A stretch of 64,000 nucleotides of DNA from Acidilobus saccharovorans 345-15. GTDB lineage: Archaea; Thermoproteota; Thermoprotei_A; Sulfolobales; Acidilobaceae. Under the pieces are notes generated by a model. That model did not search any database. It was not told the DNA's origin and was given only the letters and a program-made list of their open reading frames with translations. Location of the stretch: assembly GCF_000144915.1 (NCBI RefSeq), contig NC_014374.1, positions 1,364,001 through 1,428,000 of the forward strand. The letters run 5' to 3'. This document shows, piece after piece, positions 24,018 through 30,400 of the stretch; position 1 is the stretch's first letter, and every line of letters starts with the position of its first letter. The translations under genes were made by a program, and so were the position numbers.

Positions 24018-25232
24018 GTGCAAGAGGGCTTGATGTCGAGGGTCTCCGAGGCCGAGCTCAACAGGAGGCTGAGGGCCCTCAGGGAAAGGGTAGCCGCCGC
24101 AGGGGCCCAGGCGGCCGTGCTTACTTCCTCCGTAAGCATATTCTACTTCACAAACCTCTCGTTCATAACCACTGAAAGGCCCGTTGTAGTCATAGTGCCT
24201 GTGGACGGTGAGCCCTTCGCGGTCCTGCCGAGCGTCGAGATGGGCCACGCGGAGTACAGGAACTCCAGGTGGGGAGGCGTTGTCAAGCGCTTTGAGTACT
24301 ACTTTGACTACCCCGGGGAGGTGCACGTGGCCAACTTCATAGCCGACGCCATAGCAGGCTCTGGGCTAAGGCATGTCATGGGGGAGTCCCTGGGGCCCAA
24401 GGGGGCCTACGGCTACTCTGGCCCGCCTCTCCAGGAGCTGCTTGCCAAGAGGGGGGTCAAGTGGACCGACATGGGCGACCTGGTGGCGGAGATGAGGCTC
24501 ACTAAGTCGCAGGAGGAGCTCTCGCTTATAGAGGAGAGCGGCAGGTGGGCCTCAAGGGCCATAGACAAGGCCATGGAGCTTATGGCCCCGGGCAGGTGGG
24601 ACTGGGAGGTCTCGCTGGAGGCCAGCCTCGAGGTCAGCAGGGAGATGAACAGCCGCTACTCGCCCTACGTGCCCCTCAGGGGCACCGTGGGCTGGGTCGT
24701 GGGCTTCAGGGGGCAGGTGGGCGAGTTCTCGGCCTACCCCCACGCCCTGGTGGCGGAGAGGCCCATGAGGGAGGGGGACGTCATTGGGATAGGCTCCGGG
24801 CCCGAGGTGGGGGGCTACTTCGCTGAGCTCGAGAGGACCCTCGTCCTTGGGACGCCGAGCAGGGAGGTGAGGGAGCACTTCGACAAGATGCTGAAGGTGA
24901 GGCAGGCGGCCATTGAGTCCCTGAGGCCAGGCGCCAGGGCCTCAGACGTGGACAGGGCCATGAGGACCAGGGCAAGGGAGCTCGGGGTGGATGGCCTGCT
25001 GAGGCACCACAGCGGCCACGGCCTGGGGCTTGAGGAGCACGAGCCCCCGTTCCTCGACGTCGGCAATGGCCAGGAGCTCAGGCCGGGCATGGTAGTGACC
25101 ATAGAGCCGGGCCTTTACGTGCCCGGCCTCGGGGGCTTCAGGCACAGCGACACCTTCGTCATAACTGAGGACGGCGCCAGGAGGCTGACAAGTTACCCGG
25201 AGGACATAGACGAGCTCACAGTAAGGCGCTAG
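24018..25232 (+). CDS. M24-family peptidase (Xaa-Pro aminopeptidase/dipeptidase-like) with altered metal ligands
   Basis: A 404-residue pita-bread protein: N-terminal creatinase domain (ALRERVAAAGAQAAVLTSSVSIFYFTNLSF) and C-terminal M24 domain. The HHSGHGLGLEEHEPP and TIEPGLY motifs are present. Canonical PepP/PepQ use DxG...GYxxDxTRT; here the text is GIGSGPEVGGYFAELERT, so the first Asp is Gly and the second Glu, and the last Glu ligand in RxED is Ser (FRHSD). It may therefore bind metal differently or act on other amide bonds. GTG start at 24018, or ATG at 24033 after GAGGGC; TATTTTTA near 23985 is the promoter. The end overlaps nep1 by 4 nt, convergent. Confidence 0.82.
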   Translation: MQEGLMSRVSEAELNRRLRALRERVAAAGAQAAVLTSSVSIFYFTNLSFITTERPVVVIVPVDGEPFAVLPSVEMGHAEYRNSRWGGVVKRFEYYFDYPGEVHVANFIADAIAGSGLRHVMGESLGPKGAYGYSGPPLQELLAKRGVKWTDMGDLVAEMRLTKSQEELSLIEESGRWASRAIDKAMELMAPGRWDWEVSLEASLEVSREMNSRYSPYVPLRGTVGWVVGFRGQVGEFSAYPHALVAERPMREGDVIGIGSGPEVGGYFAELERTLVLGTPSREVREHFDKMLKVRQAAIESLRPGARASDVDRAMRTRARELGVDGLLRHHSGHGLGLEEHEPPFLDVGNGQELRPGMVVTIEPGLYVPGLGGFRHSDTFVITEDGARRLTSYPEDIDELTVRR

Positions 25233-25876
25233 AGCTCGTAGTAGGCGTTAGCTATAGAGCACGCCACGTCCCACGACTTGAGGGGCTCCCCCTCCCTTAT
25301 CCTGTAGTACTTGAGGGCCAGGGACTTCACCTCGTCAGAGAAGTCGCCCCTCGGGAAGGCCCCGAAGCCTACTGGAACACCGAGGGACGAGGCCTCCCTG
25401 AGGACTGAGAGCGTGTCTGAGCTGGCCCCGCCCTCAGAGAACACTATGATCCTCCTGTCCCCCAGGAAATCCCTGAGGCTGTCCGCCACCTTCCACGCTA
25501 GCGGCCTCCCGCTCGGCGGCACCCTGTTGTCCCTCAGCAGCTGCGCCATGAGTCCCTTGAACCTGTCGTAGTTCTTTGGAACCCTTACGTCTGGGGCGAA
25601 AGCGAACACCCTGCCGTCCTGGACGTGCATGTAGACCTCCACCTTGCCCTCCAGCACCGGCCTCTTCTCGAGCAGGTTCAGGAGGCTGAGGTGCACTATG
25701 TCCGGCCTGCCCCTCCTCCACCAGCCCTCCAGCGACCTCATAGCCTTCCAGTGCAGGCCAGCGTCGAGGACCATCTCCTCCGGCCTGAGGCCGTACCTCC
25801 TGGCCGTCTTGACCACCTGGGGGTGGGAGGCGAGCTCCCTGGGGATGACCTCCAGCGCGGAGTCCAGGAGGAGCAC
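25229..25876 (-). CDS. nep1: rRNA pseudouridine N1-methyltransferase Nep1 (Emg1)
   Basis: SPOUT-class methyltransferase of 215 residues that methylates N1 of a pseudouridine in helix 35 of 16S rRNA and helps build the small subunit. Family stretches are clear: GLHWKAMRSLEGWWRRGRPDIVHLSLLNLLEKRP, RVPKNYDRFKGLMAQLL, and the knot region IIVFSEGGASSDTL and VPVGFGAFPRGDFS. GTG start with GGTGAGGGG about 12 nt upstream. Length is normal for archaeal Nep1. Confidence 0.93.
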   Translation of the reverse strand: MLLLDSALEVIPRELASHPQVVKTARRYGLRPEEMVLDAGLHWKAMRSLEGWWRRGRPDIVHLSLLNLLEKRPVLEGKVEVYMHVQDGRVFAFAPDVRVPKNYDRFKGLMAQLLRDNRVPPSGRPLAWKVADSLRDFLGDRRIIVFSEGGASSDTLSVLREASSLGVPVGFGAFPRGDFSDEVKSLALKYYRIREGEPLKSWDVACSIANAYYEL

Positions 25877-25953
25877 GGTGAGCTTGGCCAGGCCCCCTCA
25901 CCCTATACTAACATAGGAAATACAGAGATGGAGAAAGGGCTGCGCAGCGGCGT

Positions 25954-26880
25954 CTACTCATAGTCTTCGCCGCCCTCCTCGGCCTCCCCCTTGCCCTCCC
26001 TGCCCCAGAGCTCCCTTCTCCTGGCCTCCAGCTGGTTCACCTCAACCCCCATCAGCTCAGCCGCCGTGAGCAGCCTGACGCCGGTGTCCTCAGCGGCCCT
26101 GTAGTGCTCCCTCAGCCTCTCCCTGTAGTTGAGGTCCCTGAGGAGGTGGTGGTCAACTACTATGGTTTCGGCCACACGGGCCTTGATCAGCTCCATCAGG
26201 CCATCCAGGCCCCTCTGGACGGCCTCAACGGGCACCTTGAAGCCGGCGAAGTAGGTGGGAGGGCCGCTGAGCACCAGGAGCCTGGCCCCCGCCCATGACT
26301 TTAGCTGCTCCACGGCCTGGGGGTCCGCGGGCCCCTGGGAGTCGCTGGCGAATATTATGGATTCGCCGTCGCACGAGGCCCTGACCATTATCAGCCTCCC
26401 CACCTTGGTGCCCGGCTCGCCGTGCCACACGGGCGGGGAGAACTCGAGCGTCAGGTCCCCCACCCTGAAGGTCTGCCCGTCGGCGTAGGACACCTGGGAG
26501 TTCTGCTCAACCTTGCCCTCAACAAGGAACCTCCTGGCCCTCCCCCTCTGGCTCCAGTTGATGTTACTGTTTGGGTCCTTGATGAGGAGCCTCTTGCCGT
26601 AGTAGAGGTCTGGCCTGTCCTTGAGGTAGTGGTCGTAGTGGTAGTGCGTTATTATTATAGCGTCCGAGCTGGAGACCTCCTCGGCTATCCTCTCAAGGGC
26701 GCTGTGAAGCGCCTGGAGCTCAAGCTGGTGGGGCGGCAGGCCGTACCTCCTGGGCGCGAGCGAGGCGCCGAGGTCTATGCCGAGCCTGACGCCGCAGGCC
26801 TCTGCCACGGTCGCTATGCTCCTCACGCCCATGCTGTCGGCCGCGAGTATAGAGACGTCGAAGGGCCCAGCCCTTACCAA
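25954..26880 (-). CDS. Metallo-beta-lactamase fold hydrolase, UPF0282 family
   Basis: A 308-residue predicted hydrolase (COG2248/UPF0282). It has AADSMGVRSIATVAE near the start, the metal-binding ITHYHYDHY motif near residue 78, HGEPGTKVGRLIMV (third His), FASDSQGP (bridging Asp) and a late VVDHHLLRDL. The C-terminus ends with an acidic tail GEAEEGGEDYE. Substrate unknown; the family is archaeal and conserved. TTG start. Confidence 0.87.
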   Translation of the reverse strand: MVRAGPFDVSILAADSMGVRSIATVAEACGVRLGIDLGASLAPRRYGLPPHQLELQALHSALERIAEEVSSSDAIIITHYHYDHYLKDRPDLYYGKRLLIKDPNSNINWSQRGRARRFLVEGKVEQNSQVSYADGQTFRVGDLTLEFSPPVWHGEPGTKVGRLIMVRASCDGESIIFASDSQGPADPQAVEQLKSWAGARLLVLSGPPTYFAGFKVPVEAVQRGLDGLMELIKARVAETIVVDHHLLRDLNYRERLREHYRAAEDTGVRLLTAAELMGVEVNQLEARRRELWGREGKGEAEEGGEDYE

Positions 26881-26975
26881 GCTCCCGCCGAGGACCCTGT
26901 GGCCCCCGGCGATAGTAAGCGTTTACACCTGCGGCTCAGGGTTAAAGGCACAAGCGGACCTGGGCCTGGGAGGGG

Positions 26976-27614
26976 TTAGAGGCGCTCTCAGTAATACTCT
27001 CGAGCGAGAACCCGACGCTGCAGAGGGACCTTGAGGCCCTCTACCCGGGCCAGTTCAAGTTCTTCTACATGCAGTACAGGCCCGGCCACGGCATAAGGAA
27101 GGACGAGATGGACATCATGTTCGCCGAGCTCTCCAAGATAAAGGGGGAGGCGGAGCGGGCCGACGGCATACTCTACGCCAGGTCCTACGGCGCCTTCAAG
27201 GAGTTCCAGTTCAGGCTGCTCAGGGACTTCTTCTCGGTGCCCGTGGTGATAGCCACCGAGGCCATACTCACCAGGCTCAGGGAGCTCAGGGCCAGGAGGG
27301 TCTACCTGGTGACCCCCTACAACCATTGGAGGCACGACTACGAGGTCAGGTGGCTCAGGGATAACGGCTTCGAGGTGGTGGGCTCCATAGCGCTGGGCAG
27401 GACGGGGGGCAAGGCCATAGCGTCAACGCCCCACGAGCTTGTGATAGACGCTGTCAGCGTGGCCCAGAGGAGCGAGGCCGACGCGATATACGTGGCGTGC
27501 ACGATACTTTCAACGCTCCCCGTCCTCGACAGGCTGAGGGGGAGGCTGCCCGTGGTCACGGCCTCCTCAGCGATGCTCGACGTGGCCAGGGAGATCGGCA
27601 TCTTCAAGGGGTGA
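26976..27614 (+). CDS. Asp/Glu racemase / maleate isomerase-like protein, start codon unclear
   Basis: A protein of the Asp/Glu/hydantoin racemase and arylmalonate decarboxylase fold. The reading frame encodes [23 protein letters not shown], equivalent to the family N-terminus with its SSN-type substrate loop, then later [14 protein letters not shown] with the catalytic-type Cys, and [14 protein letters not shown]. The first ATG is at 27069, after the conserved loop. Upstream to the stop no ATG/GTG/TTG occurs; TTA at 26976 is where a start is expected, preceded by GGGAGGGG and by a TATA-like GTTAAAGG (26941-26948). Possibly a non-standard start or a sequence error. Its 3' end overlaps the next gene by 4 nt (GTGA). 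Confidence 0.68.
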
Positions 27615-28531
27615 GCCGGTTGCTCTCCATAAGCTCCGAGCTGCTCGGGTTCCTCAGGCTCAGGGAGGGCACGGTAGAGGTCATAGACAGGGCCCCTCCC
27701 TCTGACGAGCAGCTGGTGGGGCTAGTCAAGGAGGCCATGGAGAGGGAGAAGTCCCTGGTGTCGGGCCTCAGGCTGGGCGACGACATGAAGTACGCCATAG
27801 ACGTGGGCCTCACCAACGCGTCCTCAGGGCTCCTCTACCCGGCCGAGGTGGCCGTCAGGTTCTTCCTCGAGAGGGGCTCGCTGTGCCTCATAGCGTCGAG
27901 GACCACGGAGCTCTACATAAAGGCCCTTAGGGAGAGGGCCTGGCACGCCATGGTAGATGACGGCTACATAGTGAGGAGCGGGCCGGAGGCCGTGGGCAGG
28001 GTGAAGAAGCTGAGCGGCAGGAAGAGCCTTGAGGGGGACGCCATATTCCTTGCCGGGAAGCCCGTGTGCGAAAGGCACCTTAAGTGGCCCGAGTACTCAA
28101 AGCCCATTGAGGAGCTGCCCCTCGAGAAGAAGTACCTTAAGGCGACCCTCGACACCAGGAAGAGGAAGAAGGGCTCGGCAATAAGGTGCGCGTTCTGCAA
28201 CAGGGAGGCCAGGTACTTCACCTTACCCATGATAAAGGCCAGCGCCCTGGTCTTCATAGCGAGCTACCTGGCCGGCCTTAACCCCGAGGGGCCCATGGAG
28301 CTCTACTCAAACCTCTCCAGGGTTCTCCACCCCTACGGCTTCTCGTGGCTGAGACCCGAGGCGGCGTTCACCGTGTGGGCCAGGGACATGCTGACTGCGG
28401 CCTTCTACGTTAACTCCATGCTCGGCTTCCCGCTGCCGAGGGTCAGCCCGAGGAAGGCCCCGGCCGAGGCCGCGCTCGAGCAGCTGCTGTCCATAAGCGA
28501 CACTGACGAGGCCTCAAATGCCCCCGCATAG
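27611..28531 (+). CDS. Protein of unknown function with CxxC motif, linked to radical-SAM genes
   Basis: A 306-residue protein that I do not recognise. The GTG start overlaps the racemase stop. Visible are a helical N-terminal half, [14 protein letters not shown], a Lys/Arg-rich stretch [22 protein letters not shown] with a CxxC pair that could bind zinc or iron, and a hydrophobic segment [17 protein letters not shown]. The gene ends 20 nt before the SPASM radical-SAM gene and shares its direction. It could be a partner or substrate-recruiting protein for that enzyme, by position only. Confidence 0.7.
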
Positions 28532-28551
28532 GGCTCCCCAAGGGAAGTAGG

Positions 28552-29607
28552 TTGCTGTGGCTGGTGTTTACCACGGGCTTCTGCAACCTGAGGTGTGACT
28601 ACTGCGGCGGCTCCTTCCCAAGCAAGGTGGTGCCCTACACGGTGAGGTACGACATTGAGAAGCTTAAGAGGCTCGTGGAGGCGGACCCCCAGGCCACGGT
28701 CATATTTTACGGCGGCGAGCCCCTGGCCAACCCCAGGTTCGTAGAGGAGTTCATGGACAGGGTCAGGGCCAGGAGGTACGGCGTGCAGACCAACGGAACG
28801 CTCTACAGGCTGCTGCCCGACCCCTACTGGAAAAGGATGAGCGTGGCCCTCCTCTCAATAGACGGCAGGGAGTCGGTCACCGACAGGCACAGGGGCAGGG
28901 GGGTCTACAGGAGGGTGCTGGAGGCCGCCAGACACCTCAAGTCCCTAGGGGTTGAGACGATAGCTAGGATGGCGGTGACCCAGGACACGGACATATACGA
29001 GGACGTCATGCACCTCCTGGGCCTCGGGCTCTTCGACAAGGTGCACTGGCAGCTTGACGTGGTCTGGTCGCCCAGGTGGGACTTCGAGGGGTGGGCCGAG
29101 AGGAGCTACTTGCCCGGGGTGAGGAGGCTCGTGGACCTCTTCATCTCGGAGCTCAGGAGGGGCAGGGTGCTCAAGATAATTCCAATACTCGGCGTGGTGA
29201 GCGCCCACTTCTTCGGCGGCTACCCCGGCTCGCCGTGCGGCGCGGGCTACAGGAGCGTGGCCGTGAGCACTGACGGCAGGGTGCTCGCCTGCCCCATAGC
29301 AGTTTACGAGAGGTGGGCCGAGCTGGGCACCGTGGACGGGGGGTTCAGGCTCATGGGCCCCTACCTGGCCAAGGAGTGCGCCTCCTGCCCCTACAGGAGG
29401 TACTGCGGCGGCCGCTGCCTCTACGCCTCGATAGAGAGGGACTGGGGCGAGGAGGGCTTCACGGCAGTTGACAGGGTCACCAGGGCCTACCTTGACGCCG
29501 TGCTCTCAATAATACCGGAGGTGGAGCGGCTGGTAAAGGAGGGCGCCGTGAGGCTGGAGGACCTGAGGTATGACCCAACTGAGGACTCCACTGAGGTCAT
29601 ACCGTGA
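28552..29607 (+). CDS. Radical SAM/SPASM protein, putative peptide-modifying (AF0577-like)
   Basis: A 351-residue radical-SAM enzyme. C11-x3-C15-x2-C18 (CNLRCDYCGG) binds the SAM cluster; FYGGEPL is the GGE motif; the C-terminal SPASM region has Cys in GSPCGAGYRS, VLACPIA and CASCPYRRYCGGRCLYAS for auxiliary clusters. It resembles the archaeal putative peptide-modifying family named after AF0577. Such enzymes install thioether or C-C links in peptides, or activate other enzymes. No obvious precursor peptide was seen in the short gaps beside it. TTG start. Confidence 0.85.
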   Translation: MLWLVFTTGFCNLRCDYCGGSFPSKVVPYTVRYDIEKLKRLVEADPQATVIFYGGEPLANPRFVEEFMDRVRARRYGVQTNGTLYRLLPDPYWKRMSVALLSIDGRESVTDRHRGRGVYRRVLEAARHLKSLGVETIARMAVTQDTDIYEDVMHLLGLGLFDKVHWQLDVVWSPRWDFEGWAERSYLPGVRRLVDLFISELRRGRVLKIIPILGVVSAHFFGGYPGSPCGAGYRSVAVSTDGRVLACPIAVYERWAELGTVDGGFRLMGPYLAKECASCPYRRYCGGRCLYASIERDWGEEGFTAVDRVTRAYLDAVLSIIPEVERLVKEGAVRLEDLRYDPTEDSTEVIP

Positions 29608-29659
29608 GCCTCGGGGCTCAGGGTTATTAGCCTTGGAGCCCGCGCTGTAGCTGAAGGTC

Positions 29660-30400
29660 ATGTCGCTGCTGCCCGACCTAGGCAACAGGAGGCCCGTCAG
29701 GCCGAACAGGTCCTGGAACCCGGTCACTGGCTGCCCCCACCTGTGCACCTACTGCTGGGCCATGAAGCTGATAGAGGGGAAGCTCAGGGACAGCCCCAAG
29801 TACAGGAACGGCTTCGCGCCGACGCTCCATGAGGAGGACCTTGAGAGGGCTAGGTTCAGGCCCGGCGACACCGTGTTCGTGGTCGACATGGGCGACCTGT
29901 TTAGTGACGCCGTGCCCTCTGAGTGGATAGCTAGGGTGCTCAGGAGGGCCAGGGAGTTCCCATCAACGAGGTTCATGTTCCTGACCAAGAACCCTGCCAG
30001 GTACAGCGAGTTCCTGGACCTCTTCCCCAGGAGCTCGGTGCTGGGGGCCACCATAGAGACCAACAGGGACGACCTTGCTAGGTCGGTGTCTAGGGCCCCT
30101 CCGCCGTCGGCCAGGCACGAGGCCATGGCTGAGCTCAGGTGGCCCTACAAGTACGTCTCAATAGAGCCGATAATGGACTTCGACCTGGACGTCATGGTCT
30201 CCTGGGTGGCTGACATAAGGCCGGTGAGCGTTCACGTGGGCTACGACAACTGGAACTCAAGGCTGCCTGAGCCTCCTCTATGGAAGGCAAGGGAGCTGGT
30301 CAGGAGGCTCTCCTCCGTGGCCCCCGTGGCCCTGGGCTCCATGAGGGAGCCGTGGTACGAAGCCGCGTTTAGGAGGAGGCTGGGGAGCGCAGTTCTCTGA
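29660..30400 (+). CDS. Radical SAM protein of the DUF5131/Gp37-Gp68 type
   Basis: A 246-residue protein with WNPVTGCPHLCTYCWA; C25-x3-C29-x2-C32 binds the SAM cluster. Later DMGDLFSDAVP, FMFLTKNPARY and WPYKYVSIEPIMDFD match the DUF5131/phage Gp37/Gp68 group, whose reactions are unknown. ATG start, with a TATA-like GGTTATTAG about 35 nt upstream, so it may have its own promoter even though it follows the SPASM gene by 52 nt. Confidence 0.82.
   Translation: MSLLPDLGNRRPVRPNRSWNPVTGCPHLCTYCWAMKLIEGKLRDSPKYRNGFAPTLHEEDLERARFRPGDTVFVVDMGDLFSDAVPSEWIARVLRRAREFPSTRFMFLTKNPARYSEFLDLFPRSSVLGATIETNRDDLARSVSRAPPPSARHEAMAELRWPYKYVSIEPIMDFDLDVMVSWVADIRPVSVHVGYDNWNSRLPEPPLWKARELVRRLSSVAPVALGSMREPWYEAAFRRRLGSAVL

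Follow-up and report, generated by a model that had tools for sequence, protein, structure and literature searches.

A conserved two-gene module of an arginine-type AMDase-fold enzyme and a helical partner protein in Sulfolobaceae and Acidilobus

Arylmalonate decarboxylase (AMDase, EC 4.1.1.76), maleate cis-trans isomerase and the hydantoin and Asp/Glu racemases share a superfamily fold of two Rossmann-like lobes. The racemases use two cysteines, one per lobe. AMDases have a single cysteine, with glycine at the first-Cys position, which in racemases is occupied by a second Cys (PMC4996985). Another protein of this fold, ST0656 of Sulfolobus tokodaii, is a solved structural-genomics orphan (PDB 2dgd), described as 'function unknown' or as a hypothetical arylmalonate decarboxylase. 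HEPN ribonucleases are recognised by an Rx4-6H motif, with a polar residue after the arginine, and by Ex3[KR] in helix 2; the histidine lies at the border of helix 3 and the following loop (PMC3710099). Literature searches on TIGR04084/AF0577, on ST0656, and on HEPN together with AMDase returned nothing relevant. New here are an obligate gene pair, a Cys-to-Arg change in its enzyme, and a parallel pair that contains ST0656.

The locus lies in a 64 kb window, the whole stretch of DNA analysed, of a closed Acidilobus genome of 1,496,453 bases (G000). Four open reading frames follow one another on the + strand. Genes 1 and 2 overlap by 4 nt (GTGA), and gaps of 20 nt and 52 nt precede genes 3 and 4. 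Reading of the ORFs confirmed the coordinates of the original prediction. The features are as follows.

26976..27614, + strand: gene 1, read as 212 codons, AMDase/maleate-isomerase-fold enzyme of the Arg type with one catalytic Cys
27180..27182, + strand: Arg69 of gene 1, at the first catalytic Cys position (G74 of AMDase), the same in all 16 members
27498..27500, + strand: Cys175 of gene 1 (IYVACT), the conserved superfamily catalytic Cys by alignment
27611..28531, + strand: gene 2, dedicated partner of 306 aa with a GTG start, predicted to be all-helical; it carries a CHCC site and belongs to no known family
27845..27859, + strand: E79-x3-R83 of gene 2 in long helix 75-97, invariant, resembling the HEPN helix-2 Ex3[KR] element
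28067..28198, + strand: putative zinc site of gene 2 (C153, H156 ... C193, C196), invariant in 18/18 members
28310..28339, + strand: gene 2 motif N234-x-S-R-x-x-H-P-Y-G243, end of helix 226-238 and loop before helix 249-271
28552..29607, + strand: gene 3, TIGR04084 (AF0577) radical-SAM/SPASM protein, neighbour outside the module, TTG start, 351 aa
29660..30400, + strand: gene 4, DUF5131 radical-SAM protein, outside the module, 246 aa

Genes 3 and 4 belong to the families originally proposed for them. Gene 3 matches TIGR04084 (rSAM_AF0577) over its full length with 570.9 bits (NCBIfam cut-off 225), and its sequence holds C11-x3-C15-x2-C18 and a C-terminal SPASM Cys set. Gene 4 scores 68.3 bits against DUF5131 (Pfam gathering score 28.9). 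PADLOC matches of the two genes were weak or generic radical-SAM/DUF5131 matches.

The original prediction treated all four genes as one cluster, whose racemase-like and radical-SAM enzymes might have a modified peptide or amino acid as their product. The close packing of the genes on one strand here and the SPASM subfamily of gene 3 speak for such a cluster; the neighbourhoods of gene 3 elsewhere speak against it. Of 60 related genomes, 15 carry a strong relative of gene 3. In the ten of these read for neighbourhood besides this one, genes 1 and 2 were never beside gene 3 (0/10). DNA synteny with the sister genome G003 (L101) runs from window positions 24030-26960 directly to 28553-30379, and the 1.6-kb block of genes 1 and 2 is extra in G000. 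Thus, in this genome, genes 1 and 2 are inserted between two genes that adjoin in both G003 and G002; in those two genomes a metallo-beta-lactamase gene adjoins gene 3. The synteny rules out a four-gene operon. Genes 3 and 4 are adjacent in G000, G003 and G001 and not in G002; their pairing is an Acidilobus-level neighbourhood. In two Sulfolobaceae a class I aminoacyl-tRNA synthetase gene directly follows gene 3. Genes 3 and 4 are therefore an unrelated neighbouring unit, since genes 1 and 2 are absent beside gene 3 elsewhere, their block is extra in G000, and gene 3 has other contexts. They became neighbours of the gene 1 and gene 2 pair in this genome only, and gene 3 is an ordinary TIGR04084 member placed next to the module by chance. 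A RiPP-type peptide-modification cluster was also sought: no precursor gene lies between the genes, as originally reported, the 20- and 52-nt gaps being too small for one, and the maturase neighbourhood is not conserved. The gene 1 product is moreover no two-Cys racemase, since it lacks the second racemase Cys (see below). A peptide-modifying racemase and SPASM system is hence barely credible. The cluster is indeed tight here, as first described, but this arrangement is private to one genome and comprises two units.

The first of these units is conserved. Using a profile of the gene 1 subfamily (A3), which separates members (≥344 bits) from paralogues (≤103 bits), we found 16 members: in 14 of 31 Sulfolobaceae species examined, in G000, and on a contig titled Candidatus Micrarchaeota (L114, placement by title; GC 31%). 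A gene 2 homologue adjoins the enzyme gene in all 16 genomes. The pair is tandem in seven genomes, with overlaps of 4-35 nt, and convergent in nine, where the genes either overlap by 54 or 141 nt or lie 3 nt apart; they overlap in 15/16 pairs. On either gene tree at least two changes of orientation are needed. Gene 2 occurs without the enzyme in two genomes, G003 (Acidilobus) and G430 (Metallosphaera-genus), and the enzyme never occurs without gene 2 (0/16). Because the scan of the whole collection relied on exact peptide patterns, it may miss distant members. No third conserved neighbour was seen across Sulfurisphaera/Stygiolobus-like, Metallosphaera-like and other groups, where contexts vary by genus. 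Genes 1 and 2 (26976-28531) are a self-contained, conserved two-gene module. The expectation that conserved co-occurrence would reveal a system was thus borne out for genes 1 and 2, but not for the combination of gene 2 and the AF0577-like gene.

In both gene trees the Acidilobus pair is nested inside Sulfolobaceae, and holding Sulfolobaceae together is rejected by the AU test (p=0.009 for gene 1, p=0.028 for gene 2). This nesting, with the rejection, makes horizontal transfer of the pair likely. Gene 2 belongs to a family of patchy distribution that is exchanged horizontally among Sulfolobaceae and Acidilobus, and not to an unrelated housekeeping family, which had been named as an outcome that would count against a system. 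The idea that gene 2 came from a phage or plasmid was rejected: there was no relative in IMG/VR, the plasmid collection or BFVD folds, and none significant in PHROGs. Likewise, no relatives of the pair were found in viral contigs or plasmids. Genes 1 and 2 have no PADLOC match, and a known defence system was set aside.

The gene 1 product is predicted to have the superfamily fold. Its model (pLDDT 91.7) finds ST0656 as the best match among PDB folds (Foldseek E 2e-14, TM 0.76), followed by maleate isomerase and AMDase, and the profile comparison with ST0656 gives E 1.5e-26. The strongest family match is Pfam AMDase (44.2 bits, above the cut-off). The scores against Asp_Glu_race (26.7 bits, cut-off 31) and the NCBIfam AMDase equivalog (50.5 bits, cut-off 225) are both below threshold. 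Like AMDase, gene 1 has a single Cys (Cys175, equivalent to Cys188) and the Tyr of the TPY motif. Unlike AMDase, it has Arg in place of G74 and Thr in place of G189, and its motifs ILYARSYG and IYVACTIL depart from the AMDase motifs LMGTSLSF and ILLSCGGL. With maleate cis-trans isomerase and the hydantoin and Asp/Glu racemases it shares the C-terminal Cys motif (ACT); it differs from them in the Arg at the first Cys and in having no hydantoinase neighbours. In an alignment of 14 superfamily members, C175 and T176 never vary. In the same position as R69, Arg was found in 7/7 pair-type and ST0656-type sequences, and Cys in 7/7 other archaeal (hydantoin-racemase-like) paralogues. Within the subfamily R69 is present in 16/16 members and C175 is retained. 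Having neither the Gly of AMDases nor the second Cys of racemases, the gene 1 subfamily falls outside both groups. From its sequence, two-base racemisation by the gene 1 product is unlikely, and the original term 'racemase-like' was too specific. Two catalytic positions separate the two-Cys racemases from the Arg-type group, and automatic labels such as 'Asp/Glu racemase' or 'AMDase' on the latter are hence likely wrong. Several of the Cys-type archaeal paralogues adjoin genes that, by ORF reading, resemble hydantoinases.

These residues bear on another account of the pair, namely an ordinary small-molecule racemase or isomerase beside an incidental helical neighbour, kept adjacent by overlap or joint transfer. 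Horizontal exchange of the pair and the overlap of most gene pairs would fit. Against this, adjacency has outlasted the changes of orientation, beyond what overlap alone explains, the enzyme is always accompanied by its partner, and the first catalytic Cys is gone. We consider this account distinctly unlikely.

We favour a different explanation, to which we give an even chance: gene 1 encodes a cofactor-free one-cysteine enzyme acting on a small carboxylate, with the gene 2 product as its obligatory partner. The AMDase/maleate-isomerase fold would bind the carboxylate, with Cys175 as the sole acid/base and Arg69 additionally holding an anionic group in place. The chemistry would be decarboxylation, lyase or isomerisation instead of two-base racemisation. 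The gene 2 product would be dedicated to the enzyme, either as a physical subunit or as supplier or user of its substrate. The enzyme would depend on gene 2, and gene 2 could do part of the job alone. The two genomes with the partner only favour such dependence over gene 2 being a toxin checked by gene 1. Three observations sit less well with the one-cysteine enzyme. There is no third conserved neighbour to indicate a pathway, contexts being genus-dependent. The partner of ST0656 has HEPN-like features (see below), which suggest a role with RNA and not in metabolism. Finally, gene 1 has an abnormal start in G000 and is absent from G003.

The start of gene 1 needs comment. No ATG, GTG or TTG lies between the upstream in-frame stop (26943-26945) and 27069, the first ATG, and homologues begin at about 26985. 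Across the ORF, only four places deviate from columns that are invariant in 14 Sulfolobaceae, which indicates that gene 1 was under selection until recently. The start may be non-canonical, the gene may have decayed very recently, or the sequence may contain an error. The abnormal start, together with the absence of gene 1 from G003, suggests that the gene may be decaying in Acidilobus.

Gene 2 had been noted as unknown, with a CxxC. Its lack of a family stands: no match was found in Pfam (also at E=10), NCBIfam, PDB sequences, PDB folds by Foldseek, or viral folds. The CxxC proved to be half of the invariant C153/H156/C193/C196 site. The AlphaFold2 model, built from 13 rows, is mainly helical (pLDDT 90.4, pTM 0.89). 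A search with it, proposed originally as a way to find a peptide-binding domain, gave no PDB-fold match; gene 2 represents a protein family that is confidently modelled and has no counterpart among the solved folds. Among 18 members, 43 residues are invariant. Beside the residues of the putative zinc site they include E79, R83, E87, R88, W111, H112, K209, Y232, N234, S236, R237, H240, P241, Y242, R258 and D259. Two features recall HEPN domains. One is Ex3R in a long helix, and the other is a conserved His where a helix gives way to the loop that leads into the last helix, preceded by a large insert; both fit the HEPN scheme with helices 2 and 3 numbered by our own assignment. Unlike in HEPN proteins, the spacing of R237-x2-H240 is 2, not 4-6, there is no HMM or fold match, and gene 2 has a putative zinc site.

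The parallel with ST0656 extends to gene neighbourhood. ST0656-like enzymes share with gene 1 the Arg-for-Cys change, and they too obligately adjoin a dedicated partner gene. ST0656-like enzymes and a 233-aa protein occur in the same 12 Sulfolobaceae genomes, and by coordinates the genes are adjacent and divergent in 12/12; in G437, an additional genome, the ST0656-like match is only partial. Hence, both Arg-type enzymes have dedicated partners. The two pairs differ in that the enzymes are 27-32% identical and the ST0656 partner, from another family (RNLLAHGE), lacks the CHCC site and is divergently encoded. In five sequences of this partner, R194-N195-x3-H199 and E109-x3-R113 are invariant, so that the protein has both HEPN motifs, Rx4-6H with a polar residue behind the Arg, and Ex3[KR]. 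Neither a HEPN model nor any other in Pfam matched it at E=10, and homology between the two partner families was not detected (hhalign probability 0.4%). We hypothesise that the two partner families are of one kind. ST0656 and its relatives thereby gain a genetic handle: one obligately linked partner per Arg-type enzyme.

The second pair raises an RNA-acting or regulatory module as a possible, though unlikely, alternative. Gene 2 would be a HEPN-like domain, divergent and built of four helices (56-71, 75-97, 226-238 and 249-271) with a zinc insert between helices 2 and 3. The racemase-fold protein would be its regulator or antagonist, and ST0656 with its 233-aa neighbour would form another system on the same plan. 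This alternative draws on both HEPN motifs in the 233-aa partner, on E79-x3-R83 and H240 of gene 2, which lie at HEPN topological positions (PMC3710099), and on the ST0656-like enzymes, which carry the Arg too and adjoin that partner in 12/12 genomes. It is weakened by the Arg-His spacing in gene 2, by the lack of a match of either partner family to any HEPN model in Pfam even at E=10, by the lack of a Foldseek HEPN match for gene 2, and by the lack of profile similarity between the families. In addition, the two enzyme-less partners do not fit a toxin whose only antitoxin is the enzyme, and no defence-island context was seen. Extended to all Arg-type racemase-fold proteins of Sulfolobales, such a scheme would make them controllers of HEPN-like helical effectors, with canonical motifs in the ST0656 partner and a zinc-bearing divergent form in gene 2, in regulatory or toxin-antitoxin-like two-protein systems, not metabolic racemases; we rate this broader proposal as distinctly unlikely. 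ST0656-type and gene 1-type enzymes coexist in several genomes.

Gene 1, the AMDase/maleate-isomerase-fold enzyme, has no ATG, GTG or TTG start codon at the place where its homologues begin (window 26946-27068). Despite this, a Shine-Dalgarno-like sequence, GGGAGGGG, is present at 26968-26975. In the sister Acidilobus genome, G003, gene 1 is wholly absent. There, one copy of a ~90-bp interspersed repeat lies between the metallo-beta-lactamase and radical-SAM genes, which is the site of the gene 1/gene 2 pair in A. saccharovorans. Another copy is immediately upstream of the orphan gene 2. Copies in G003 include:

C1:839069-839163 (locus L116), ~90-bp repeat
C1:935550-935638, ~90-bp repeat

The repeat was matched 21 times in G003 and 12 times in G001, with two weak matches in A. 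saccharovorans; none was found in G002. A search against Rfam gave no match.

Six genomes from genera g38 and g41 (L092-L096 and L129) carry the pair convergently, with a 3' overlap of exactly 141 nt. Hence, gene 2 there has a C-terminal extension antisense to the last 47 codons of the enzyme gene. The pair is also found, in convergent arrangement, on a contig titled Candidatus Micrarchaeota (L114:5935-7350, JAJZBL010000001.1; GC 31%), and may have passed between Sulfolobales and a DPANN archaeon.

The gene for the ST0656-type enzyme, named for the nearest solved relative of gene 1 (PDB 2dgd), is divergently adjoined by a gene for an uncharacterised 233-aa protein in 12 of 12 genomes (G218 and 11 other Sulfolobaceae). 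In G218 (C1, ~640 kb) these are:

L143:7204-7875 (-), ST0656-type enzyme
L143:7913-8614 (+), 233-aa protein

The 233-aa protein contains HEPN-type motifs (VRNLLAHGE and Ex3R); Pfam, PDB and PADLOC yielded no family. Separately, between this locus and the gene 1/gene 2 pair of G218, L143:12282-12975 holds a probable MNT/HEPN toxin-antitoxin gene pair, as read from sequence.

In two Sulfolobaceae, the gene directly 3' of the TIGR04084 radical-SAM gene encodes a class I aminoacyl-tRNA synthetase with leucyl-type domains:

L104:7103-10990, radical-SAM then synthetase gene
L105:6369-10296, radical-SAM then synthetase gene

The DUF5131 gene (window 29660-30400) matched two PADLOC candidate-defence models, PDC-M41B and PDC-M30B, probably reflecting only its DUF5131 domain.
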